From an uncultured Bacteroidales bacterium (GTDB taxonomy: Bacteria; Bacteroidota; Bacteroidia; Bacteroidales; WCHB1-69), in contig ONCM01000024.1 in assembly GCA_900316305.1 (NCBI GenBank), positions 1 through 60,865 on the forward strand: DNA of 60,865 bases. Reading direction: 5' to 3'. The notes beneath the pieces were generated by a model. The model did not search any database. It was not told where the DNA came from and worked only from the letters and a program-made list of their open reading frames with translations. This document shows, one piece after another, positions 11,574 through 22,955 of this stretch; within the stretch, counting starts at the first letter, position 1; every line of letters begins with the position of its first letter. The translations under genes and the position numbers were made by a program.

Positions 11574-12506
11574 ATGAGTCACGATTACGTATTGGTTGCC
11601 GGTCGGTCGAATCCGGAGCTGGCGAAAAAGATTGCCGACTGTCTTCACAAGCCCCTCCTTTCAGTTGACATTCTCCAATTCAAGGACGGGGAAATCCAGG
11701 TCTATTACAACGAGAGCATCCGCGGACGCGATGTCTTCATCATCCAGCCGACCTTCTCCCCGGCAGACAACATCATCGAGCTGCTGATCGCCATCGACGC
11801 TGCCAAGCGCGCATCGGCACGCAGCATCATCGCCGTGGTCCCCTACTTCGGCTATGCCCGTCAGGACCGCAAGGACAAGCCCCGTACCTCCATCGGTGCC
11901 AAGCTGATGTGCAACCTGCTCACCACTGCCGGTGTGAGCCGCGTCATCACCATGGACCTGCACGCCGACCAAATCCAAGGTTTCTTCGAAGTGCCTGTGG
12001 ATCACCTGTTTGCCTCCAACGTCTTCATCCCGTTAGTGAAGAACAGCGGTTGGGAGAACATCAGCATCGCATCGCCTGACACGGGCGGTACGAAGCGTGC
12101 CTCCACGTATGCGAAGGCCCTCAACTGCGAGCTGGCTATCGGCTACAAGCAGCGCGAGAAGCAGAACGAGGTGGCCTCCCTGCAGATCATCGGCGACGTG
12201 AAGGGCAAGAACGTGATTCTGGTTGACGATATCATCGACACCGCCGGCACGCTTTGCAAGGCTGCCGCCCGCATCAAGGAGATGGGTGCCCTCAGCGTCC
12301 GCGCCATGTGCGCCCACGGCCTCTTCTCCGGCGACGCCCTCGAAAAGATCGAGAACTCCGTGCTCGACGAGGTCCTCGTCACCGACACCATCCCGTTGAA
12401 GCGCCCCTGCGCCAAAGTGAAGGTTGTCTCCGTGGCCAAACTGCTGTCCGAAATCATCCTAAGCGTCGAGGACAACACGTCCATCTCGTCGCATTATTAC
12501 GTATAA
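11574..12506 (+). CDS. prs: Ribose-phosphate pyrophosphokinase
   Basis: 310 residues, standard length. The cytoplasmic enzyme makes PRPP from ribose 5-phosphate and ATP for purine, pyrimidine, His, Trp and NAD synthesis. Visible marks are the flexible loop FGYARQDRKDKPRTSIGAK (about 98-116), the metal-binding MDLHADQIQGFF (about 124-135) and the PRPP loop VDDIIDTAGTLCKAA (about 216-230). It is a single gene with a bidirectional terminator behind it. Identification is secure. Confidence 0.98.
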   Translation: MSHDYVLVAGRSNPELAKKIADCLHKPLLSVDILQFKDGEIQVYYNESIRGRDVFIIQPTFSPADNIIELLIAIDAAKRASARSIIAVVPYFGYARQDRKDKPRTSIGAKLMCNLLTTAGVSRVITMDLHADQIQGFFEVPVDHLFASNVFIPLVKNSGWENISIASPDTGGTKRASTYAKALNCELAIGYKQREKQNEVASLQIIGDVKGKNVILVDDIIDTAGTLCKAAARIKEMGALSVRAMCAHGLFSGDALEKIENSVLDEVLVTDTIPLKRPCAKVKVVSVAKLLSEIILSVEDNTSISSHYYV

Positions 12507-12509
12507 CCG

Positions 12510-12541
12510 TTGTAGAGACGTGGTGCACCGCGTCTCTACAA
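12510..12541. repeat. Intergenic palindrome, family member 3
   Basis: TTGTAGAGACG and CGTCTCTACAA flank a TGGTGCACCG core; one mismatched pair interrupts an otherwise complete 32-bp inverted repeat. It lies immediately behind prs and before the terminator. Confidence 0.8.
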
Positions 12542-12577
12542 AAAAAATCCCCTCTCGCGTGAGAGGGGATTTTTTTA
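12541..12577. terminator. Bidirectional terminator between prs and the glycan cluster
   Basis: AAATCCCCTCTC-GCGT-GAGAGGGGATTT with A- and T-runs on both sides. It would stop transcripts from prs (plus) and from the glycan operon (minus). Confidence 0.92.
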
Positions 12578-12589
12578 TTGCCTCAGGGG

Positions 12590-13390
12590 TTATACCCCCT
12601 TCACATGATATTTGCGAAACAAATTATTGAATAGAATCTTGAACAGGTCGGCGTTGCCAGACCATTTGCTGATTTTGGTCGGAACCTTCTCCCCTTTGGG
12701 ATAGATGCGGGAAACGGGAATCTCGCACCCCTTCAAACCAAGTTGGTTGGCACGCACGGAGAGGTATGCGAGCAGCTCATATCCAGCAAAAACATCACGC
12801 AACGGCTGTACGTCAGGATGTTCCAAATATCGGCGGGAATACGCCCGGTATGCGTTGGTCGTGTCGGTGTACCAATGGCCCGCCGTGAACGAGATGATTG
12901 GGGCGTGGATGAAACGCACCGCCAGCCATCGGGCCATCGGAGTGTTCTCCGCATGACCACCCTTCACAAATCGTGAGCCCTGAACCAAGTCGTAACCCTC
13001 CTCCAGCTTAGCGATGAACGCAGGGACATCCTCTATACTATCCTTGTCATTCCCATCAATGGTAATAAAACCTTTGTAGCCACGGTCCAGCGCCCATGAA
13101 AAACCCATCCGCAACTGGGCACCCTGCTTCCCAGAATCCTGCTTGACCAAAAGCGTGTTCACGCCCAATTGCTGCAGCCGCTCATGTTCCGTGCACCCAT
13201 CCGTAGAGCCGCCATCGCAAATCACAATATCGGCATAGTCCGAAATTTGGGCATCTTGGGCCCGTTCCAACTCGTGGATAATGCGATTCCCCTCATTAAT
13301 GATGGGTATCAACACACAGTACTCCCGCTGTTTGGGCAGGAACTCAAAACTTTCGTAAGAGGGAACACCCGACGCTCTATCGTATTTCAT
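12590..13390 (-). CDS. Family 2 glycosyltransferase (soluble)
   Basis: About 266 residues from MKYDRASGV at 13390; a start at 13417 would add nine residues and deepen the overlap with the gene before it. The GT-A fold is shown by VLIPIINEGNRI (about 24-35), IVICDGGSTDG (about 55-65), the DxD-type metal site ITIDGNDKDSIED (about 106-118), VQGSRF and DTTNAYRAYSRRYL. The last is typical of GT2 enzymes acting on polyprenyl-phosphate or nucleotide-sugar substrates. No membrane segment is evident. It is the last gene of the seven-gene glycan operon and overlaps the preceding isomerase gene by 14 bp. It probably transfers a sugar during synthesis of the surface glycan made by this operon; donor and acceptor are unknown. 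Confidence 0.88.
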   Translation of the reverse strand: MKYDRASGVPSYESFEFLPKQREYCVLIPIINEGNRIIHELERAQDAQISDYADIVICDGGSTDGCTEHERLQQLGVNTLLVKQDSGKQGAQLRMGFSWALDRGYKGFITIDGNDKDSIEDVPAFIAKLEEGYDLVQGSRFVKGGHAENTPMARWLAVRFIHAPIISFTAGHWYTDTTNAYRAYSRRYLEHPDVQPLRDVFAGYELLAYLSVRANQLGLKGCEIPVSRIYPKGEKVPTKISKWSGNADLFKILFNNLFRKYHVKGV

Positions 13391-14180
13391 CTCTTGTATT
13401 TTTAATATACCCGACAATCTCTTTCACCTTGGACAGGTCTCCTTTGTTTCCCATCTCTATGCTGACAAAACGATTATAACCGATTGATTGAAGGATTTCA
13501 AACAATTGCAGGTGTAATTCCCGCTTTTCAATCAGATTGAGACCCGGCTCACTGACATGGACATGGTTGATGTATTCGGGAATCTGTCTCAAGTAATTGA
13601 TATCCTCCTCATTATAGATCACCGTACCCAGATCTACGTTCACCTTCACCCCTCTGGAACCGCATCGGCAGGCCAATTCTACGGCCTGCTCCGTATAGTT
13701 GATAAAACGAGTGTTGTATATCGTTGGATTCGCCTCTATGGCAATTGTAGTGTGGTGTTCCAGCGCATAGTCACCGATCTCTTTGAAAAACTCAATGGCC
13801 GTCGCATAATTACCAAGAACATCATCTGTGTCCCGGTTGCGCGGATTCCCGAACACCAGATTCCGACAACCTATCACTTCGGCAAAATCGACCGCCTTCT
13901 TAGTATAATCCACCAACACGCGCCGTTCCTCTTTCGTTCCGAAAATTTTTTCCTGATGTCCATACCAAATGGACTGCATGGAAGGCACCTCTAGACCATA
14001 TTTTGTGTTCAATTCTTCCGCCCAAACCTTAGCTTCCGCCAGCTTGTCGTAGGGTGCTTCGGGGAATATGCGGGTTGGCGCTATCTCCAATCCTTGAAAG
14101 CCTGAATCTTGCAGAAACTGACCCATTTCCGCATCCTGCTCCATTCCCCATGCGATATTGGATATTGACAATTTAATCAT
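13377..14180 (-). CDS. Sugar phosphate isomerase/epimerase-like TIM-barrel protein
   Basis: 267 residues, typical of the xylose-isomerase-like TIM-barrel family (AP endonuclease 2 superfamily). Beta-strand ends carry likely metal ligands: SISNIAWG at the N terminus, GLEIAPTR (about 34-41), NLVFGNPRNR (about 106-115), TIAIEANPTIYN (about 142-153), VKVNVDLGTV (about 174-183), NHVHVSEPG and FVSIEMGNKG. The family includes isomerases and epimerases of free or phosphorylated sugars and inosose-type dehydratases, so the substrate cannot be assigned. It overlaps the upstream epimerase gene by 8 bp and the downstream glycosyltransferase by 14 bp. A role in making an unusual sugar for this glycan operon is inferred from context. 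Confidence 0.85.
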   Translation of the reverse strand: MIKLSISNIAWGMEQDAEMGQFLQDSGFQGLEIAPTRIFPEAPYDKLAEAKVWAEELNTKYGLEVPSMQSIWYGHQEKIFGTKEERRVLVDYTKKAVDFAEVIGCRNLVFGNPRNRDTDDVLGNYATAIEFFKEIGDYALEHHTTIAIEANPTIYNTRFINYTEQAVELACRCGSRGVKVNVDLGTVIYNEEDINYLRQIPEYINHVHVSEPGLNLIEKRELHLQLFEILQSIGYNRFVSIEMGNKGDLSKVKEIVGYIKNTRDEIR

Positions 14181-15099
14181 GACTCAACTGTTCAGTTATG
14201 AAATGTTTAATATCCTCCAAAAGTTCTTGTTTAGAATAGAGATAGCCGTCTTTCCCACCAAACACCTCCGCATACATACTCTTCAGATGCTGGACAGGAT
14301 AAGAGGCGCTACACTCATTAAAAAAGGGTTTCTGATAGATATATTCGAAAAGCTCCGATGATTTTATCGGTTCGGATGCAATGGTCAGCAGCCGGACTCC
14401 ATTATCTATAGCCTTGCATATAACATTCCAAAGATTGGCCAAGTTGAAGTACTGGTATTCGCTCCGACTGTCGGTGAAATTCAGCGCACTGAAACCAGCT
14501 TGTTCAAAAAAGTGCCTCAACAGTGCTTTTTCCTCCTTGCTTTCCGCCACACATTTGTAGAAACCGTCGCCCCTGTCCTGATAAAGATACGCCAGCTCGC
14601 TATTTTGGAAAAGCTGCTCATACTTCTCAGTTTTCAATAACGCCGGAATATAATGGATCATATCGAAAATGAAATTCTTCTTGATCCCTTGACCAAACAA
14701 AGCGGGCAGGCGGACAATCAGATAATAAGCACAGTTCTCCTCCACCCACTTTTCAAGGAGCCGACGATTTCGCCCGTATGCAGTGCCCGCGTTTTCATTC
14801 AACGGGGTACGTTCATCCCCTTCAAAAACGGGATAAACACTGATAGTGGAAATCAGAACCAATTTCTTCGGGTTAATTCTCTTAATGTTCTCAATTGCCT
14901 CCTGTATATTCTCCAAATCCTTTTCCGGAAAATGGTTGGCGGTGAACATCTCCGCCCGGATGCCGGCATACACCAGCAAATCGGGGGCAGTTCCAAAAGC
15001 ATCAGCAATATTCTTACTGTTGTATTGGGCGTCAAAAGGATGGGACAAGCATAAATTCTGCCCCACAAAGCCCGTATATCCTACAATTGCGCTCGTCAT
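14173..15099 (-). CDS. NAD-dependent epimerase/dehydratase family protein
   Basis: 308 residues. The Rossmann glycine motif GYTGFVGQ lies at residues 7-14 (family form GxxGxxG). Further short-chain-reductase features are KLVLISTISVYPVF (about 95-108, with the catalytic Ser/Thr region) and a Tyr-containing TAYGRNRRLLEKW (about 125-137), which places Tyr and Lys/Arg near the usual YxxxK site. The Lys is replaced by Arg (YGRNR), so catalysis may be altered or the motif lies elsewhere. It probably modifies a nucleotide- or lipid-linked sugar. It follows the GtrB-like gene with a 1-bp gap and overlaps the isomerase gene by 8 bp. Confidence 0.85.
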   Translation of the reverse strand: MTSAIVGYTGFVGQNLCLSHPFDAQYNSKNIADAFGTAPDLLVYAGIRAEMFTANHFPEKDLENIQEAIENIKRINPKKLVLISTISVYPVFEGDERTPLNENAGTAYGRNRRLLEKWVEENCAYYLIVRLPALFGQGIKKNFIFDMIHYIPALLKTEKYEQLFQNSELAYLYQDRGDGFYKCVAESKEEKALLRHFFEQAGFSALNFTDSRSEYQYFNLANLWNVICKAIDNGVRLLTIASEPIKSSELFEYIYQKPFFNECSASYPVQHLKSMYAEVFGGKDGYLYSKQELLEDIKHFITEQLSHD

Positions 15100-15100
15100 T

Positions 15101-16039
15101 CTATTGCAGTTTTTCTATGGATTCGAACAGATAATCTTTTTTCTTGAAATTCAGCCTTACCAGCGTCTGCAGGTAGCGGATAATCATGGCAAGGATGATA
15201 AACAGTCCGCTAAAGCCGAACGACATGAAGAAGATGATGGTAGTCCATCCTTCAATAGGCGTTTTCATCAGCCGGAAAATGATGGCGTAGAGACCAAAAG
15301 AGGCAGAGACCACAAACATGAAGATGGCCAATGCCATAGTAGCCTTGAACGGAACATCCGTATAGAGGAATAGCGTTTCGAGCGCCACCAGCCACGAATT
15401 GTTATAGCGCGTTCTCTTCACGTCGGTCGTAGGCTCATACTTGATGGTGTCAACCGCCAACCCGCAGTTCGCGTAAGACGCTTTCCGGTAGGGAATGCTC
15501 TGCGTGATGGAATGCACCCTGTTAATCGCCCGGCGCGACAGAACACGGAAGGACTCCGGACCAATGGGATGCTGCAAATGGGCATGACGATTGAACAGGT
15601 GATAATAGCGACCGGCAATCCATTTGGGGCTTCTGTCGCAACGCGCACTGACAATGTCATATCCGGTCAAAGAATGGCGGTAAATCTTCATTAACAAGGA
15701 CATCTCATAATCTTCATCCAAAGAATCGAATTCGAAAACAAAATCCCCTATGGTCAGGTTCAAGCCGGCATTCATGGAAGCCTCCAGTCCCTGCCGGAAA
15801 CTCATATTCAGCAGCGTAATCGTATGTTCATGCTCGCCTTGGTTGACCGCATGGGCATACTCCTTCACACGCTTGGAACTGTCATCGGTGGAGGCATCAT
15901 TGACCACCACAATCTCATATTTGAGAAAATTGGCATTCAGCGTCTCGTCCAGCCGTTGGATAAAACCGCCTATCTTATCGGCCTTGTTGCAGCAATAGAC
16001 CACTGCGGACACAAAATTCTTTTCTTTATTCTGTTCCAT
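15101..16039 (-). CDS. GtrB/DPM1-like family 2 glycosyltransferase with two C-terminal membrane segments
   Basis: About 312 residues from MEQNKEKNF at 16039 (an upstream ATG at 16054 gives 317). The GT-A domain carries FVSAVVYCCNKADKIGGFI (about 7-25), IVVVNDASTDDSS (about 44-56), the DxD-like FEFDSLDED (about 105-113) and HPIGPESFRVLSRRA. Two hydrophobic helices (about 222-248 and 262-290) close the protein. This architecture is that of GtrB and related polyprenyl-phosphate sugar transferases, which load a sugar from a nucleotide donor onto undecaprenyl phosphate at the inner membrane face. GtrA- and GT-C-like genes lie in the same operon, completing a three-part decoration system. It overlaps the FAD protein gene by 14 bp. 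Confidence 0.88.
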   Translation of the reverse strand: MEQNKEKNFVSAVVYCCNKADKIGGFIQRLDETLNANFLKYEIVVVNDASTDDSSKRVKEYAHAVNQGEHEHTITLLNMSFRQGLEASMNAGLNLTIGDFVFEFDSLDEDYEMSLLMKIYRHSLTGYDIVSARCDRSPKWIAGRYYHLFNRHAHLQHPIGPESFRVLSRRAINRVHSITQSIPYRKASYANCGLAVDTIKYEPTTDVKRTRYNNSWLVALETLFLYTDVPFKATMALAIFMFVVSASFGLYAIIFRLMKTPIEGWTTIIFFMSFGFSGLFIILAMIIRYLQTLVRLNFKKKDYLFESIEKLQ

Positions 16040-17162
16040 AATCCAGTATTTCATTTAAATCATAAACAGTGTTGATCTTCCCCGAAAGCACACTGACAAA
16101 AGTAGGCTGTGTTGTAAAGGTTTTGATTACGGTAGGCCTGCTGTCGTCAATCTCAGAAGCCAAAAGAATAGGTTTCATAGAGAACAACGTGTGGTCGAAC
16201 TCAAAGGTCAGGTCGTCACGCATATATTTTCGGGCCAGATTGCTCATATATGGCCATGCGCTCTCTGGTCTGGCCGGGCAATCGTCGCAATTTCCCAGCT
16301 GTAGGGGCGAACAGAAGCCGTTGCTCCTTTCCATGCAATTGAAGTGCGGCAAAGACTCTTTGCAAGCCTTGTGGGGCGTGAACGTGACCGCCGTCAAAGA
16401 ATGGTAACCCGTCCTTCCAAACGGCATGATGGAAAAGAACGGCCCGTCCATGACCGTAAGTCCAGTATCCTTCAACTTGTCATTGACATTGCACAAAATA
16501 ATCTCACAAAGTTCATACTTGATCTTGAAATGCTCAAAACCAAGCATGTTTTGTATCTGGTTAACCGACGCGTAGGTGGCATTCAACACAAACGCCGACT
16601 TTGCCTTTGTCCCGTCGGCAAGTGCTATCACGTACTCATTGCCGTTGTTTTCAATGCTTTGGATTCTAGCGCCATACTGCACCTTCACATTGGGCAGCTC
16701 CGCAAGCTTCTCCAGAAAATATTTCTTCAGAATCTGGGCATCGTAGGTATATTCCTCCGTCAGGAACGCACCGTCACAATATCCGTCCTTAAAGTATTTC
16801 TTCGTACTGACCTCCTCGCAACGTATGCCTGCCGCTTCGCAGAACTTCCTGAACTGGTTGGCGTCACTCCAAGAGAACTCCGAGCTGGTGGCATACACTT
16901 GGTCGAACTTTGTCAGCAGAGTGAAGCCATAGTCATCGTTAAACCGCTTGAAATACCGGGCAGACTTGATGGCTGTGCTATAGGAACGAGGATAGTGATA
17001 ACCATTGTGGACCCGTGCCTGGTTGATGAAGGTGGCGCGTTTGAAAGCGGCATCATCATACTCCAGCACCAGAATCTTATCCCCAGCAGCCCCTCTATAC
17101 TGCGCTGAATACAGGCCGTACAGTCCTGCACCAATAATAATTTTGTCAAAGGTCTGTATCAT
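16026..17162 (-). CDS. FAD-dependent oxidoreductase (DAO-like)
   Basis: 378 residues. The dinucleotide-binding motif IIIGAGLYGLYSAQ (GxGxxG at 11-16) is followed by LVLEYDD, the acidic end of beta-2 that binds FAD ribose, and by RVHNGYHYPRS, typical of DAO-family amine or sugar oxidases. The C terminus ends in LSGKINTVYDLNEIL, resembling the second FAD contact of the family. A Cys cluster (GFCSPLQLGNCDDCPARPE, about 275-293) is notable and might bind metal or form disulfides. The gene overlaps gtrA-like by 4 bp (ATGA) and the GtrB-like gene by 14 bp. It may oxidise a sugar or amino sugar for the glycan. A UDP-galactopyranose-mutase-like role cannot be excluded, but the signature is weak. Confidence 0.85.
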   Translation of the reverse strand: MIQTFDKIIIGAGLYGLYSAQYRGAAGDKILVLEYDDAAFKRATFINQARVHNGYHYPRSYSTAIKSARYFKRFNDDYGFTLLTKFDQVYATSSEFSWSDANQFRKFCEAAGIRCEEVSTKKYFKDGYCDGAFLTEEYTYDAQILKKYFLEKLAELPNVKVQYGARIQSIENNGNEYVIALADGTKAKSAFVLNATYASVNQIQNMLGFEHFKIKYELCEIILCNVNDKLKDTGLTVMDGPFFSIMPFGRTGYHSLTAVTFTPHKACKESLPHFNCMERSNGFCSPLQLGNCDDCPARPESAWPYMSNLARKYMRDDLTFEFDHTLFSMKPILLASEIDDSRPTVIKTFTTQPTFVSVLSGKINTVYDLNEILDYGTE

Positions 17163-17569
17163 TTGAGCTTTTTTACGATGAACTTGATAATAATGAAATT
17201 GGTTATGACACTGATCAGCAATGTCGGTATATACGCTATCTTGTCACTGATTCCCAACAGATTTACAAAACAATACATCAGCCCCATCCTGACCACAAAC
17301 AGATTGAAGAGATGGGCGGCCACAATTCCTACGGCGTTCTTGGTATTGGGTTTGCTTTTGAATGTCCAGTAAATCGTCAGGAAATAGTTGGCAATCAGAC
17401 TCAACAGGTAACCCGCAACCAACGCAACCTGATAAGGTGCAAAAAGACGCACCGTATAAAAAATGGCGGAATCCAGTGCCGTACAAAGGACACCCACGAT
17501 GCAAAAGCGAATGAGTTCTTTTACTGCATCTCTGTTCAACCATTCTTTTATGCGACCCATCGGCAACAA
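17159..17569 (-). CDS. GtrA-like membrane protein (putative lipid-linked sugar flippase)
   Basis: About 136 residues (MGRIKEW at 17560 is an alternative start). Four hydrophobic helices span about 17-40, 43-65, 78-105 and 112-133. The family pattern is clear in ELIRFCIVGVLCTALDSAIFYTV at the N terminus, NYFLTIYWTFK in the middle and FIIIKFIVKKL at the end. GtrA proteins are thought to flip undecaprenyl-phosphate-linked sugar across the inner membrane after GtrB has loaded it. Its neighbours fit: a GtrB-like enzyme two genes downstream and a GT-C enzyme immediately upstream (12 bp gap). Its stop overlaps the FAD-protein start by 4 bp. Confidence 0.92.
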   Translation of the reverse strand: MLPMGRIKEWLNRDAVKELIRFCIVGVLCTALDSAIFYTVRLFAPYQVALVAGYLLSLIANYFLTIYWTFKSKPNTKNAVGIVAAHLFNLFVVRMGLMYCFVNLLGISDKIAYIPTLLISVITNFIIIKFIVKKLK

Positions 17570-17581
17570 TCCGGTTTCTTA

Positions 17582-19531
17582 TCAGTCTGCTTGATACATA
17601 ATGCCGTTTCGCCACAGGCCTGACATGATAGCCTTTCCGTCCACATCATACAACACGCCGTGACCGTTGGGCATATTGTTAGAAAACGTCCCTTTGAAAG
17701 TACGACCGTCCTGCATTTTCAGCGTACCTTCGCCTTCACGAACACCATCTTTCATTTCGCCCTTGTATCCCCATTCGTCATTGAACTCGAAAATGAAGGT
17801 CGGGTTAATTCTCCTCAAAGTATCCACTTGTCCGAACCGCTTCACTTCCTTGAACTTCTCAGGATACTTCATCACGCATGGATACAAGGTGAGGTACGCA
17901 TGACGGAACCAAGAATCAATAATCACATAATTGATATTGTTGCGACACAACATATTATAGATGGTGTCAGGATCTGCATAGTGAGGGAAACTGCTAGATG
18001 GATGGTAATGAGAGAACATATAGAAAAGTTCCGGCTTGCGGTTGACGACTCTTGCGTTCTCCGGCAGACTGTCACCACAGAACTTAGCTGCACTCAGGAA
18101 GTTCACCGAATTGATATCTCCGGTGGACAGCCACGATTTGATTCTGGCAGTTTTCCTGAAATCCGATTGGGCCTCTGTATATTTGGGTGCCATCAGTCCG
18201 AGCGTAAGAATCAGCAGCAAGATACCTTGTGCCAAGAAAGGAGGATGGGACAGCTTGAATGCTTTATACGCCCAAGCCACAATCGCAACCAAACCGGCCA
18301 AAGACAGGAATATGAAGAACGGCATCACAGGCACTATATATCGCGTTCCACCATACTGTTCGGGGAACAGAATCAGTACCCCAACCGTCAAGGCCACATA
18401 AAACAACATGAGCAAACGCCCTTGATTCAGATAGAGACATCCGCAGATCATCACAGCTATGAGCAACAGTCCCAACGCTAATTCTTTACCGGTGACATCC
18501 TGATCACCATAGACAGGTGCCTTCATACATGTAGCCTCAGGAATCCATCGGGCAATAAAATGGGAAGTATTGCTTTTGATACGAATCTTCCAATCTGCCA
18601 CCCCTTCCATGGTTTCATTGTTCGTCTTCGACATGAAAAGCTTCTGGTAATCGTCGGCAACCAGATTCAAATGACGGTTACGGGCATCCCAAGAGAGCTT
18701 GGCCGTACCGACAGCCAACAGAGTCACCAGACAGAGCGTCGCAGCTTTGAGAAAAGTCAACTTGTGAGAAAGGGCAACGGCCTCTTCAGACTGCTTGTCA
18801 GCTTTGCGCCAACGCACCAGCTCGTAAATGGCGATAATGCCCAACCAACCTATCAACGCTAAAATCAGGGAGAGCCCCATCGTACGGACAAAATAGGTGT
18901 ATGCTATGATCAATCCATAAATGACGATAGTCACCGGAAGCATCCAACGCCGCTTCTCCCCTATCTTATTCCTCAATATCAGCAAGGCAAGAAGGATGGC
19001 CAACAAGGAGAGGAAAATATACAGGGACTCGCTCATCATAATGGTGGCGAACCGCAACAATTCCTTGTGAAGCGACATCAGCAACGACGAACAGAAAGCC
19101 AAAATGGAATTTCGCGTCGTGAGGAAGACCACAAAAAACATCAACATCACATTCATCCACATCAGGAAGCCGTTAGCTTTCTTGACCGTCTGCACATTAT
19201 CCGGAAACACCTTGATAACCTTGGAAACAAACCACGGATAACCAGGCGGGAAATGGGAATGCGGCGTCTTATTAAAACCCATAATGTTGGTATAGCCCTC
19301 ACCCTGACTCAGAGCCTGTCCCAACGAATAATAGTAGATATTATCCCCGTTTAGGTCAATTTTTCTATCATAGAGGGAGGCATAATTGTGGTTATATACG
19401 AATGAGACAATGACCAACATTACGCCAATCACCCATTTGTTACGGAAAAATTGGTCCAGTTTCTGCCAAATATCAACTTTAGAGGCGGCCGGATTGTTCT
19501 GCACCTTGTTCACCTTGCTTTTTGACTTCAT
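17582..19531 (-). CDS. Multi-pass GT-C-type membrane glycosyltransferase with C-terminal MORN repeats
   Basis: 649 residues. After a basic cytoplasmic start (about 1-30), roughly ten hydrophobic helices extend to about residue 440. The first periplasmic loop contains an acidic motif DLNGDNIYYYSLGQALS (about 58-74) and SHFPPGYPWF (about 92-101), as in GT39/ArnT-like enzymes that use lipid-linked sugars. A soluble domain follows (about 450-575). The last 70 residues form MORN repeats: YKGEMKDGVREGEGTLKM, FKGTFSNNMPNGHGVLYD and a partial third (SGLWRNGIMYQ). MORN units on a GT-C enzyme are uncommon. It is the first gene of the operon, with a -7 element about 100 bp upstream. It would transfer the flipped sugar to a surface polysaccharide, lipid or protein; the acceptor is unknown. 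Confidence 0.86.
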   Translation of the reverse strand: MKSKSKVNKVQNNPAASKVDIWQKLDQFFRNKWVIGVMLVIVSFVYNHNYASLYDRKIDLNGDNIYYYSLGQALSQGEGYTNIMGFNKTPHSHFPPGYPWFVSKVIKVFPDNVQTVKKANGFLMWMNVMLMFFVVFLTTRNSILAFCSSLLMSLHKELLRFATIMMSESLYIFLSLLAILLALLILRNKIGEKRRWMLPVTIVIYGLIIAYTYFVRTMGLSLILALIGWLGIIAIYELVRWRKADKQSEEAVALSHKLTFLKAATLCLVTLLAVGTAKLSWDARNRHLNLVADDYQKLFMSKTNNETMEGVADWKIRIKSNTSHFIARWIPEATCMKAPVYGDQDVTGKELALGLLLIAVMICGCLYLNQGRLLMLFYVALTVGVLILFPEQYGGTRYIVPVMPFFIFLSLAGLVAIVAWAYKAFKLSHPPFLAQGILLLILTLGLMAPKYTEAQSDFRKTARIKSWLSTGDINSVNFLSAAKFCGDSLPENARVVNRKPELFYMFSHYHPSSSFPHYADPDTIYNMLCRNNINYVIIDSWFRHAYLTLYPCVMKYPEKFKEVKRFGQVDTLRRINPTFIFEFNDEWGYKGEMKDGVREGEGTLKMQDGRTFKGTFSNNMPNGHGVLYDVDGKAIMSGLWRNGIMYQAD

Positions 19532-19630
19532 AATACTACTAAATTCCTAAAACTGTATGTAAAAAAACGTTATAAAATTATCCAATCAATAGACACTCCG
19601 CAACAGCTCTCGCTGCTGCAAAACAATCTG

Positions 19631-19638
19631 CAAAGATA
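19631..19638 (-). promoter_or_regulatory. -7 promoter element (TATCTTTG) for the glycan operon
   Basis: Matches TAnnTTTG on the minus strand, about 100 bp upstream of the first gene. The leader between it and 19531 shows no ORF. Confidence 0.6.
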
Positions 19639-19664
19639 CAATTATTTTGAATCGGAAAGCGCAT

Positions 19665-19701
19665 AAAAAAAGCACTCGCAAATCGCTTTGCAAGTGCCTT
19701 T
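19665..19701 (-). terminator. Terminator of the tRNA transcript
   Basis: On the minus strand GCACTTGCAAA-GCGA-TTTGCGAGTGC (one G-T pair) is followed by seven T, four bases beyond tRNA-Arg. Confidence 0.9.
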
Positions 19702-19705
19702 TACG

Positions 19706-21209: not shown

Positions 21210-21235
21210 TGCTAACTACTAACTACTAACTATTT
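21208..21235. repeat. Heptamer array ACTGCTA/ACTACTA (4 units)
   Basis: ACTGCTA, ACTACTA, ACTACTA and ACTATTT in register. The last unit overlaps the stop codon of the metallopeptidase gene (TAG at 21230-21232, minus strand). Same heptamers as at 20030. Confidence 0.8.
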
Positions 21236-22876
21236 CAGTCCTAAGACATCGAGTCCCTGATTGAACCGAATGTCTCTCGGGATCCCCGACTTGTTGATAC
21301 GGTCGAGGTCTTTCTGCAGGTCGGCCTTGATGGTGCCGTTGTCCTTGCTGTACTGCTGGGCGAACTCGAAGTTGCCTTCTGCCTGGGTCTTGAGGATCAG
21401 GGCAATCCAACCTTCCATGGCCTTACGAGCCTTGTCGTAGTTGATGTGGTAGGTACCGTTGCCGTTGCGGGTGAAGGCACCGTTCTCAAACAAGTAGTTG
21501 TAGCACATCATGTTGGCGATACCGTGAGCCTCGGAAGCACCGAAACGCACGCTACGCAGCAAACCGACGATGTAGGTGGTGATGGCGTCCTCAACGGAAA
21601 TATCGGTGATTTCGCCCTTGTCAATGAGGTTGAGCACGAGGTTCAAGCCCACGATGTCAGCTTTGGCCTCCTCCCAGCTGGAGTTCTCGGTCTGCATGGC
21701 CTCATCCACGCTGCCTTTGCCGTTGATGGTCTGCTTCACACCCAATCCGTGTGCCACCTCATGGAAGGTGACGTTCCAGAAGAAGGCGTCGAAGGTGATG
21801 TGGTTCTGCTCGGACGGTTCGATAATGATTTCGCCGATGGGCTTCATGATCTTGTCGAACTTGGCCTGCATGGCGTTGCGCAGCTGGAAGCGGCGGGAGC
21901 CCTTCTTAGCCTGCACATTGTCGTCATTAGGCAGGTTGATGGCGATGGTCTTGCCGGCCGCGTTGCAGTCGCCGCCGTAGAAAACTACATCGTAGAGGTT
22001 CATGTCGCAAGTGGTGCCAGGCACGTAAGCCTTATAGGCAGGATCGCACGGAAGCTCGCGTTGCAATTGCGGCAACATCTTCACGAATTTGTCGAGCTTG
22101 GTGCTGGCATCGACATCCTTCACCAACACGAAAGCCTCCCAGGAGGTCTTTACGGAATTCAGACCGTCGTCGTAATTCTCGATAGGACCGAATACGAAGT
22201 CGATATTGGAATCTTTCAGATCCATCCATGCCATGTCGCTGGGGAAATAGTTGTTGTTCTGCAGGGATTTCTTGCGCTCCACGAGGTATTTCTTCATCGT
22301 CGGGTTGTCAGCAATCTCAATGGCCTTGTCCAACAACGCGCACACGCGATCGAGTTTCTCCTTGTAAGCCTCATAGTAGCCGACGGTGATCAGCTTGCCG
22401 TTCGCGTCACGTCTGAGGACGGTGTAGTGGGAAGCCTTCAACGGGTCATCGTAAGCGTCATATTCCGCTTTCGTGATGTCCTGGGGATAGTAGTTGGCCA
22501 TCGGAGGACGCTCACCGTAGCCCGGCACGAAGGGTTTCTCGGCATCGAGGCGATCCCACGGACCGTAGTTGATCATCGCATAATCCTTCATCCAAGGATC
22601 GGAAATGGTATCCAAGATGGACTTGTCACCGAAAGTCTGCTCCCAGAAAAGGTCATCCATAATCTGGCCGATTTCGAAGAAAATGGGCAGCAGCTGTCGC
22701 TCACTGTCGGTCAGTTTGGAAAGATCAGCCTTGAGGTCGAAGTAGGCATACTCCTCCACTTTCTGCTGAAGTTCGCTCTTAGAATCCTCGGCGGGGGTCT
22801 CCGTCTTTTTGTTTTTGCATGAAGCAAACAGGGCGATGCAGGCAAGCATTACCATAAATGTGGAAATTTTTTTCAT
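21230..22876 (-). CDS. M49-like (dipeptidyl-peptidase III-related) zinc metallopeptidase, lipoprotein
   Basis: About 548 residues from MKKISTFMV at 22876; the longer ORF start lacks the signal. The lipobox LFASC (Cys near 19) predicts a lipid-anchored envelope protein. The zinc motif FHEVAHGLGVK (about 370-380) gives two His ligands and the catalytic Glu in HExxHG form. The third ligand is likely the Glu in NSSWEEAKADIVGLN (about 397-411). Classical M49 enzymes carry HExxxGH with one more residue; the HExxHG form is known from related plant Nudix-fused and bacterial proteins. It may remove dipeptides from peptides imported into the periplasm. It is expressed from a -7 element embedded in a hairpin (22905-22955). 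Peptidase activity is inferred only. Confidence 0.85.
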   Translation of the reverse strand: MKKISTFMVMLACIALFASCKNKKTETPAEDSKSELQQKVEEYAYFDLKADLSKLTDSERQLLPIFFEIGQIMDDLFWEQTFGDKSILDTISDPWMKDYAMINYGPWDRLDAEKPFVPGYGERPPMANYYPQDITKAEYDAYDDPLKASHYTVLRRDANGKLITVGYYEAYKEKLDRVCALLDKAIEIADNPTMKKYLVERKKSLQNNNYFPSDMAWMDLKDSNIDFVFGPIENYDDGLNSVKTSWEAFVLVKDVDASTKLDKFVKMLPQLQRELPCDPAYKAYVPGTTCDMNLYDVVFYGGDCNAAGKTIAINLPNDDNVQAKKGSRRFQLRNAMQAKFDKIMKPIGEIIIEPSEQNHITFDAFFWNVTFHEVAHGLGVKQTINGKGSVDEAMQTENSSWEEAKADIVGLNLVLNLIDKGEITDISVEDAITTYIVGLLRSVRFGASEAHGIANMMCYNYLFENGAFTRNGNGTYHINYDKARKAMEGWIALILKTQAEGNFEFAQQYSKDNGTIKADLQKDLDRINKSGIPRDIRFNQGLDVLGLK

Positions 22877-22904
22877 ATAAAAGGATTTAAAATTAAACTC
22901 AAAA

Positions 22905-22955
22905 AACACGAGGGCAAAGATACAATATTTTTTTATGTATCTTCACCCTCGTGTT
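22905..22955 (-). terminator. Hairpin overlapping a promoter upstream of the metallopeptidase
   Basis: AACACGAGGG (22905-22914) pairs with CCCTCGTGTT (22946-22955), and AAGATAC (22917-22923) pairs with GTATCTT (22937-22943). On the minus strand the stem is followed by six T, so it can end the transcript of the DUF5618-like gene. The -7 element TATCTTTG (22915-22922) lies in the same arm. Confidence 0.7.
22915..22922 (-). promoter_or_regulatory. -7 promoter element (TATCTTTG) for the metallopeptidase gene
   Basis: Matches TAnnTTTG on the minus strand, about 39 bp upstream of the start at 22876, and forms part of the hairpin at 22905-22955. Confidence 0.55.

Follow-up and report, generated by a model that had tools for sequence, protein, structure and literature searches.

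A seven-gene operon in the window analysed here (60,865 nucleotides of an uncultured Bacteroidales bacterium; contig ONCM01000024.1) is probably a variant of the three-component glycosylation systems, in which, as judged from sequence comparisons, a cassette found across several phyla would oxidise, reshape, and re-reduce (in some relatives, aminate) a lipid-carried sugar before its flipping and attachment to the surface. All seven open reading frames (ORFs) lie on the minus strand (Table 1) and are transcribed in the order GT-C, GtrA, FAD enzyme, GtrB-like GT2, SDR, TIM barrel, and GT2; adjacent pairs overlap by 4, 29, 8, and 11 bases or sit 1 and 12 bases apart, in agreement with the initial annotation, which had described overlapping or nearly touching genes on one strand. 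The gene types named there (GtrA, FAD enzyme, two GT2 enzymes, SDR, and TIM barrel) match the Pfam assignments, with Glycos_transf_2 found in the two GT2 proteins at 3.2e-13 and 1.9e-8, and a terminator-like hairpin lies beside the operon, where a terminator had been expected. A -7 element had also been proposed: a box matching TAnnTTTG, which we take to be the Bacteroidota -7 motif, is present, but the window holds 29 such boxes against 24.5 expected, no more than chance, so that this one is backed by its position only, and the motif was dropped as evidence for an operon promoter.

Table 1. Features of the operon and its flanks (window coordinates)
Feature	Position	Strand	Evidence or context
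Terminator-like hairpin	12549..12568	both	between operon and prs
DPMS-like GT2, motif DGNxKD	12590..13387	-	profile match to DPMS 5MLZ, 2e-12
Putative TIM-barrel isomerase/epimerase, E149-D183-H208-E242	13377..14180	-	Pfam AP_endonuc_2, 3.8e-17
RmlD-like SDR with YxxxR	14173..15099	-	Pfam RmlD_sub_bind, 3.4e-9 (RmlD/Epimerase)
Degenerate GtrB with C-terminal TM part, FAD partner	15101..16054	-	profile match to GtrB 5EKP, 1.3e-35
FAD enzyme, DAO/GlpD-like fold	16026..17162	-	Pfam DAO, 5.8e-13
GtrA flippase, 136 aa	17159..17569	-	Pfam PF04138 (GtrA_DPMS_TM), 1.8e-16
Candidate GT-C-like transferase (multi-pass; 649 aa) with MORN repeats at the C-terminus	17582..19531	-	ORF, Pfam MORN
TATCTTTG, candidate Bacteroidota -7 box	19638-19631	-	TAnnTTTG match

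With the FAD protein, and not its GtrB-like neighbour, as bait, 90 loci were gathered; the set takes the best 80 of at least 547 confirmed relatives and leans to close ones, and it represents at most 89 distinct places, as L012 and L015 are very probably one. Short stretches of longer loci (L001 and L007–L010) were excluded from all locus tallies, L143–L146 lie outside the 90, and nine regions (H1–H5 and H8–H11) were read from the 12 plasmid records with a match, H6, H7, and H12 being left out. Genes were counted as beside each other when on the same strand and within 700 bases, a criterion affected by the calling of ORFs from the first start codon, which makes some too long. By this measure the GtrB-like protein is beside the FAD enzyme in 90/90 loci; FAD loci without such a neighbour are L095, L097–L100, and L146, and in one Bacteroidota genome (L142) the GtrB-like ORF is nearly 3 kb away. 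In an evenly drawn sample of 291 genomes, which overlaps the 90 loci by at least one genome (L152/L063), the FAD enzyme occurs in seven and the TIM barrel in six, the centre genome included; with the centre excluded, the counts are six and five, with both in four (hypergeometric 2.6e-7). The six sampled FAD loci besides that of the centre all hold the FAD/GtrB-like pair, plus SDR and TIM barrel (four) or DegT (two); the two FAD-only genomes read FAD–GtrB-like–GT2–DegT, and the TIM-only match is a 3.1-kb contig with an SDR beside the TIM barrel.

The same gene set recurs in Bacteroidota, Bacillota, and Alphaproteobacteria; it is also carried by a Psychrobacter plasmid of 10.8 kb, on which the GtrB-like protein and a GT2 (GT2b) are fused. 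SDR and TIM barrel are fused in five loci. FAD, SDR, and TIM genes are still together in relatives of 23–26% identity (L098–L100), and in L146 FAD and SDR are adjacent with the TIM gene inverted behind an IS element. That these are chance neighbours, ordinary sugar-pathway genes that share no pathway, is thus very improbable: each of the gene families is common on its own, but the co-occurrence in the even sample, the recurrence of the set across these lineages, and the fusions all argue against it. The kept sample is mostly Bacillota, and the distribution is patchy over several phyla, which suggests horizontal transfer. One partial match in a phage collection and six relatives on IMG/VR contigs were found, and nothing shows phages as the usual carriers, so that a phage origin was set aside. 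As for a conserved seven-gene order, the gene set does recur across phyla, whereas its strict order varies, with two common arrangements of the same blocks, and one partner of the FAD enzyme can stand in for another. The set is uncommon close to this genome: within the family, the FAD enzyme was found in 5 of 104 genomes, the window's own included, and three of the five carry another partner set; in three genomes of the window's genus or family, whose FAD enzymes are 74–75% identical, an aldo/keto reductase and a GT2 replace the SDR, TIM barrel, and GT2.

The gene at 15.1 kb had been taken for a normal GtrB, an assignment that did not hold. GtrB requires R122 and binds metal through its DxD motif; the window protein keeps the first Asp of this motif and has lost the second Asp and the equivalent of R122. 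The same pattern appears in nearly all of the 84 FAD neighbours, out of 90, taken into the residue tallies (L002–L006 and L083 being left out): 83 retain the first Asp and four the second, and the Arg is found in none (one gap), compared with 9/9 canonical neighbours. The nine controls were chosen for a DADLQ-like motif, so that the comparison is partly circular at D96 and Q98 but not at R122 and R125. Among 24 other proteins, one without the second Asp is by annotation the FAD neighbour of L002; of the remaining 23, the second Asp is present in 21 and falls in a gap in two. Proteobacterial hypothetical proteins match the GtrB-like family over only ~90 N-terminal columns. Because it lacks residues of the donor and acceptor sites on which GtrB depends, the FAD-adjacent protein is a probable pseudo-glycosyltransferase.

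The lipid is more likely loaded by the DPMS-like GT2 at 12.6 kb, a putative polyprenyl-phosphate sugar synthase, than by the GtrB-like protein. This short protein without a recognised TM part starts at ATG, with an in-frame TTG upstream at 13417, and its motif is nearly invariant in the aligned sequences (D121, 64/64; N123, 63/64; K125, 63/64), although its activity is not assured, since it has DGN where DPMS has DAD. An intact-looking GT2 is encoded elsewhere in 83/90 loci, as judged for GT2b and canonical GtrB by a short motif anywhere in the fetched DNA and for GT2c by homology, only four proteins having been read for the motif; none was found in the other seven, of which L060 and L079 were not flagged as near an end. 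DPM2 and DPM3 are regulatory or scaffold subunits of DPM1, and the degenerate GtrB might likewise serve the DPMS-like GT2 and not the FAD enzyme, as the shortness of that GT2, its missing TM part, and the Psychrobacter fusion would permit. We regard this as improbable, because the degenerate protein accompanies the FAD enzyme in every one of the 90 loci, including those in which the other GT2 differs in kind (e.g. L030, L043, L056, and L087).

The FAD enzyme is proposed to be a ketone-making dehydrogenase. Its AF2 model (pLDDT, 91.6) was compared by Foldseek alone; the best match is GlpD (2r45), and the 50 matches listed are GlpD and DAO-type enzymes, without DprE1, which has a VAO-type fold. 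A ketone-handling partner is found in 85 of the 90 loci, namely an SDR (69), an aldo/keto reductase (8), a Gfo/Idh oxidoreductase (3), or a DegT aminotransferase alone (5); these families all act on carbonyls, and their exchange for one another points to the formation of a ketone by the FAD enzyme. No carbonyl partner was found in L031, L044, L050, L058, and L059, of which L031 and L050 lie at least 3 kb from either end of the fetched DNA. The Cys cluster that had been noted in this oxidoreductase was confirmed as a loop of four residues (C276, C284, C292, and C295), present in 85/96 aligned FAD sequences and missing from the five plasmid relatives L002–L006, from L072, and from the viral-contig relatives L096–L100. 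Its absence from these 11 rules it out as a core catalytic feature and leaves it a lineage trait; in the Bacillota/Bacteroidota branch the loop may hold a metal centre, perhaps Fe-S, as an electron exit.

In the TIM barrel, E149, D183, H208, and E242, presumably metal ligands, are invariant in 17/17 aligned sequences. The barrel is YcjR/tagatose-epimerase-like, with ketose 3-epimerases as its nearest relatives and YcjR, which acts as a 3-keto-glucoside 4-epimerase, close by: the structural neighbours of a fused relative include D-psicose 3-epimerases and YcjR (6wn6) among the 50 Foldseek matches listed, and the profile match to 6wn6 is at 1.1e-8. Those 50 matches, listed for the SDR–TIM fusion, are TIM-barrel proteins, so that for the SDR we relied on sequence profiles only; its closest match is RmlD (8g22; 1.6e-6), a 4-ketosugar reductase, and we propose a ketosugar reductase for it too. 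The annotated YxxxR in place of YxxxK is real, as Y108 and R112 are invariant in 16/16 aligned sequences and the YxxxK of classical SDRs is absent. The YcjQ–YcjR–YcjS enzymes other than the barrel are of the Gfo/Idh type, and a Gfo/Idh-type dehydrogenase is absent from the window operon by Pfam search of the seven proteins, such partners occurring in 3/90 relatives. The flippase annotated at 17.2 kb is upheld by its GtrA match, and in some other loci SMR/EamA-type proteins take this slot. The GT-C-like protein likely performs the final transfer; its sole Pfam match is the C-terminal MORN repeat, a relative (L136, 69% identical) matches PMT at 5e-4, below the PMT cut-off, and two genomes (G040 and G030) have 69–71% identical relatives at the same site.

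Taken together, we lean towards a Gtr-type operon in which a keto-sugar module remodels the donor sugar while it is on the lipid carrier. The DPMS-like GT2 would load a hexose onto polyprenyl phosphate, and the FAD enzyme, paired with the degenerate GtrB at the membrane, would oxidise one hydroxyl to a ketone; the degenerate GtrB would hold the lipid-linked sugar, since its fold and TM part are kept and its donor site is not. The TIM barrel would then epimerise or isomerise the carbon adjoining the ketone, and the RmlD-like SDR would reduce the ketone to give a rare epimer, a step that in relatives would fall to an aldo/keto reductase, a Gfo/Idh oxidoreductase, or a DegT aminotransferase (yielding an amino sugar). 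GtrA would flip the lipid-linked sugar, and the GT-C protein would add it to a surface acceptor. That the substrate is lipid-linked is suggested by the GtrB-like neighbour of the FAD enzyme, by the Gtr setting, and by a Pfam search of the seven proteins that found no nucleotidyltransferase. The initial proposal is supported in part: there is a Gtr-like operon with tailoring enzymes, and its gene set recurs in other phyla, but the role of GtrB better suits the 12.6-kb GT2.

RmlD-type reductases act on nucleotide sugars, and the FAD, TIM, and SDR enzymes could instead make an unusual sugar in the cytoplasm, free, phosphorylated, or nucleotide-bound, with the two GT2 proteins transferring this sugar and a second one to the lipid and the FAD-adjacent GtrB acting as an ordinary, perhaps metal-independent, glycosyltransferase. 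The closeness of the SDR to RmlD, the retention of the first DxD Asp, and the Psychrobacter fusion of two GT2 parts, as if both were transferases, speak for this arrangement, which we nevertheless consider unlikely: the seven genes include neither a nucleotidyltransferase nor a kinase, the GtrB-like proteins lack the Arg throughout and the second Asp in 80/84, and the intact-looking GT2 at most loci leaves no need for a second active synthase.

The operon, with remodelling on the lipid as the favoured reading, shares with the three-component systems (GtrA/GtrB/GT-C; O-antigen, LTA, and WTA glycosylation) a GtrA flippase, a putative lipid-loading GT2, and a candidate multi-pass GT-C, and differs in its degenerate GtrB-like gene, the added DPMS-like GT2, and three interleaved tailoring enzymes. 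We know of few sugars that are remodelled on a lipid carrier; the examples are DprE1/DprE2 and the pentose pathway described by Kelly et al. 2024. In the latter (Citrobacter youngae O1/O2; PMC11127046), a cytoplasmic SDR epimerase with YxxxK alters a lipid-linked, PRPP-derived ribose (a pentofuranose) before export by a MATE flippase and transfer by a GT-C enzyme, GT136; here the corresponding parts are FAD, TIM, and SDR enzymes, GtrA, and the DPMS-like GT2, and neither a polyprenyl phosphoribose synthase nor a MATE flippase has a Pfam match among the seven proteins. In mycobacterial DprE1/DprE2, the decaprenylphosphoryl ribose epimerase as outlined in the same text (PMC11127046), a flavoenzyme and its partner epimerise a polyprenyl-phosphate sugar, as is proposed here; the present SDR, by Pfam (RmlD/Epimerase) and RmlD profile, resembles that partner, with NAD(P)H dependence predicted, whereas the FAD enzyme has a DAO/GlpD-like fold unlike that of DprE1, and the operon has a TIM-barrel epimerase besides. 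E. coli YcjQ–YcjR–YcjS (PMC11543891) likewise combines a dehydrogenase, a TIM-barrel epimerase on a 3-keto sugar, and a second oxidoreductase, and belongs to a sugar import and metabolism cluster. The barrel here has the same type of E-D-H-E site and matches 6wn6 by structure and profile; the differences lie in the FAD enzyme, the RmlD-like SDR, and the glycosylation operon around them. The Actinoplanes gsf cluster (PMC13390465) is GtrA-dependent but contains a UDP-sugar dehydrogenase and further genes, and was rejected as a different set. No description of the seven-gene set was found in the open-access literature.

A broader and more tentative idea is a general membrane dehydrogenase for polyprenyl-phosphate sugars, composed of the FAD enzyme and a GtrB without catalytic activity. 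As a plug-in platform it would supply a lipid-linked keto-sugar to whichever partner the operon encodes: an epimerase and reductase would then yield rare epimers, and an aminotransferase amino sugars. In the anaerobic branch, electrons would leave through a metal cluster. If so, it would constitute an undescribed route by which surface sugars are diversified between lipid loading and flipping, and a pseudo-glycosyltransferase would have been recruited to present the substrate. Kelly et al. 2024 (PMC11127046) state that, to their knowledge, side-chain glycosylation systems of O-antigens include no other epimerase. If the model of on-lipid remodelling is correct, the cassette would be another way of altering a sugar on its lipid carrier, with different enzymes and probably for hexoses, and would explain the oxidoreductases in some Gtr-like operons. 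With the FAD enzyme and the degenerate GtrB as marker genes, glycans that contain rare or amino sugars may be sought, and the cassette offers a case, open to testing, in which a glycosyltransferase fold has been turned into a non-catalytic subunit.

ORF calling bore out the claim of a one-strand run of seven near-touching genes, with overlaps of 4, 29, 8, and 11 bases and gaps of 1 and 12 bases. Of the two elements said to bracket it, a hairpin terminator does end the run; the −7 box is well placed but shows no enrichment across the window. The operon is followed downstream by prs on the other strand, and tRNA-Arg, tRNA-Pro, and recF lie upstream. Pfam matches of the encoded proteins were GT2, AP_endonuc_2, RmlD/Epimerase, GT2, DAO, and GtrA, the first gene (GT-C candidate) having MORN as its sole match. 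MORN repeats are unusual for a GT-C, and are also present in the relative in L136, a stretch from the same genus.

Positions of the operon and other features in the window
Feature	Position	Strand	Basis
Operon, seven ORFs	12590-19531	-	ORF calling
tRNA-Arg/prs interval	12506-19705		
MORN repeats, C-terminal in the GT-C candidate	about 17600-17770		
Peptidase M49 family protein, upstream of recF	21230-22909		
Four very large ORFs (2557, 1937, 4397, and 2171 aa)	23846-60848	-	

In named genome contigs, 547 relatives of the FAD protein were confirmed, and the best 80 were retained; judged by title, most come from Clostridia and Bacilli, while Bacteroidales, Treponemataceae, Chloroflexota, and Myxococcales are represented by one MAG each. 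Adding five plasmid records, four family-genome stretches, and the window gave 90 loci (L012 and L015 very probably being one place), which were annotated by profiles. A GtrB-like protein, in its standard or a divergent proteobacterial form, lies beside FAD (same strand, within 700 bases) in 90/90 loci. The accompanying genes are SDR+TIM (64 loci), SDR+TIM+DegT (3), SDR only (2), AKR (6), AKR+TIM (2), DegT (5), Gfo/Idh (3), TIM only (1), or none (4); three of the five loci without a carbonyl partner lie within 3 kb of the end of the fetched DNA. TIM is present in 67/69 SDR loci versus 2/8 AKR loci. The gene set of the initial annotation recurs, but its order varies, two arrangements being common: SDR-TIM-GT2b-FAD-GTB and FAD-GTB-SDR-TIM-GT2b (GTB, the GtrB-like GT2; GT2b, the DPMS-like GT2). 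As an exception, the GtrB-like ORF of a Bacteroidota genome (L142) is nearly 3 kb away from FAD, and none was found beside FAD in the viral-contig relatives L095 and L097–L100 or on a Mesorhizobium plasmid (L146). In the most distant relatives (IMG/VR contigs L098, L099, and L100, and L146), FAD is accompanied by SDR and TIM but not flanked by a GtrB-like gene, an arrangement that may be the older form of the module.

The association also appeared when genomes were sampled without selection for FAD: an even draw of 291 from the class to which the Blautia genome G500 (locus L048) belongs had FAD in seven and the TIM family in six. After removal of G500, which had been picked for carrying the cassette, FAD was found in six, TIM in five, and both in four of 290 genomes (hypergeometric, 2.6e-7). 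GTB adjoins FAD in 6/6 non-centre FAD loci; two genomes have FAD without TIM (L147, L148), and in these FAD, GTB, a GT2c-type GT2, and DegT adjoin one another, whereas the TIM-alone match lies on a 3.1-kb contig with SDR adjoining TIM. Full-cassette loci L151 (at 14788, 6e-11) and L153 (at 2499, 2e-11) contain a second, weak FAD homologue.

Parts of the cassette are fused or exchanged. SDR and TIM form a single protein in five loci (L033, L035, L039, L052, and L077), as do GTB and GT2b on a 10.8-kb Psychrobacter plasmid (SDR-TIM-SMR-FAD-(GTB+GT2b)-membrane protein). The gene order on six alphaproteobacterial plasmids is SDR-TIM-(GT or hypothetical)-FAD-GtrA-GT2; next comes, in most of them, a large gene for a hypothetical membrane-type protein, and in one an exosortase. 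In Ruegeria conchae (L144, 8576-10228), exosortase xrtD follows the cassette in place of a GT-C candidate, and in Rhodobacter CZR27 (L145, 1111-2721) an exosortase is upstream. The GT2 after GtrA in Cereibacter and Rhodobacter is annotated at 812–823 aa, with no separate large membrane gene behind, and is probably a GT2/GT-C fusion, judging from length alone. The flippase slot holds GtrA in the window and the six plasmids and an SMR protein in Psychrobacter; one or both members of an EamA/SMR-type pair like that of L016 (11059-11728) occur in 12/90 loci. In the genus and family of the window, AKR+GT2 replaces SDR+TIM+GT2b in three FAD loci (L011, L012/L015, and L013). The Acetobacterium-type DegT variant (L087, 5308-7850) has a phosphorylase-superfamily gene and an IF-2B-family (MtnA-like) gene just upstream of GT2; ORF lengths are similar in L056, L071, L073, L086, and L147, and several loci of this variant have a second TIM-barrel family downstream.

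The FAD-adjacent GtrB-like profile matches GtrB structures (1.3e-35). In GtrB, according to PMC4728340, the DxD pair (D94, D96) binds metal, D157N kills activity, and changes at R122, R125, K132, A136, Y140, R200, L212, A216, and R290 also abolish it. Among 84 aligned FAD-adjacent proteins, the first Asp of DxD is kept in 83 and the second in 4, and Arg at the R122 equivalent is found in 0/84 (one gap) versus 9/9 canonical GtrB-like neighbours. The D157 equivalent, mostly Ser, Ala, or Thr, is a weak marker, since the nine canonical proteins vary there (Asn 4, Asp 3, Glu 2). The proteobacterial counterpart aligns to the family only in its N-terminal part, and none of six sequences has DxD at the family's position. 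A separate GT2 is encoded in 83/90 loci (GT2b, 66; GT2c, 11; canonical GtrB alone, 6); five loci that lack GT2b (L032, L039, L043, L052, and L072) encode a second GtrB of DADLQD or EADLQD type.

Matches listed for the predicted structure of the FAD protein (pLDDT 91.6) include GlpD (TM 0.73) and L-2-hydroxyglutarate dehydrogenase, both of which oxidise a secondary alcohol, as well as D-arginine dehydrogenase and the glycine and sarcosine oxidases. The protein's reported Cys cluster proved to be a four-Cys loop in 85/96 sequences, missing in L002–L006, L072, and L096–L100, and may be a metal site in anaerobes. E149, D183, H208, and E242 of the TIM barrel are kept in 17/17 sequences, and the matches listed for a fused SDR-TIM relative (pLDDT 92.8) include D-psicose and D-tagatose 3-epimerases, UlaE, xylose isomerases, and YcjR, titled 3-keto-D-glucoside 4-epimerase. 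Arg does occupy the catalytic Lys position in the SDR, giving the YxxxR noted initially; the SDR profile is nearest to dTDP-4-dehydrorhamnose reductase, a ketosugar reductase.

SDR, AKR, Gfo/Idh, and DegT proteins all act on a carbonyl, and their interchange around the constant FAD/GtrB-like pair is best explained by the pair making a keto-sugar. The presence of a GtrB-like partner and the absence of a nucleotidyltransferase among the seven genes suggest a lipid-linked substrate. The sugar would be loaded on the lipid, oxidised, epimerised, reduced, flipped, and finally transferred, an order proposed because the pair would make a ketone and the TIM barrel would require it. Remodelling of a sugar on its lipid is described in PMC11127046 for DprE1/DprE2 and for Citrobacter, where an SDR converts undP-ribose to undP-xylose. 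No description of the gene set appeared among the open-access papers listed, a scope outside which most subscription papers fall.

The prs/tRNA-Arg interval was compared in nine recF-side stretches from same-genus genomes (L133–L139 among them), three of which ended early or lacked prs. The distance from tRNA-Arg to prs is about 40 bases in G011 (L139), oriented as in the window, and about 160 bases in G031 and G041, with prs on the opposite strand relative to recF. G009 carries an unrelated 357-aa ORF at this site. In G040, GtrA lies there with a 520-aa amine-oxidase-like flavoprotein and a GT-C with 69% identity to that of the window, and G030 has at least the 520-aa protein together with a GT-C at 71% identity. 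The interval is polymorphic within the genus, being empty or occupied by the window cassette, another ORF, or GtrA with the amine-oxidase-like protein and GT-C; as G040 and G030 show against the window, the GT-C sits there with differing donor genes. The GtrA/520-aa protein/GT-C set in L136 has no GT2 of its own at the site. The rarity of FAD homologues, found in 5/104 family genomes and, at E 1e-60, 2/395 Bacteroidota genomes (the window's own included in both), suggests that the cassette was acquired. The first three giant ORFs contain Fib_succ_major, PKD, fn3, MBG, and List-Bact repeat domains in a domain scan; they encode giant surface or secreted proteins, which are possible targets of glycosylation.
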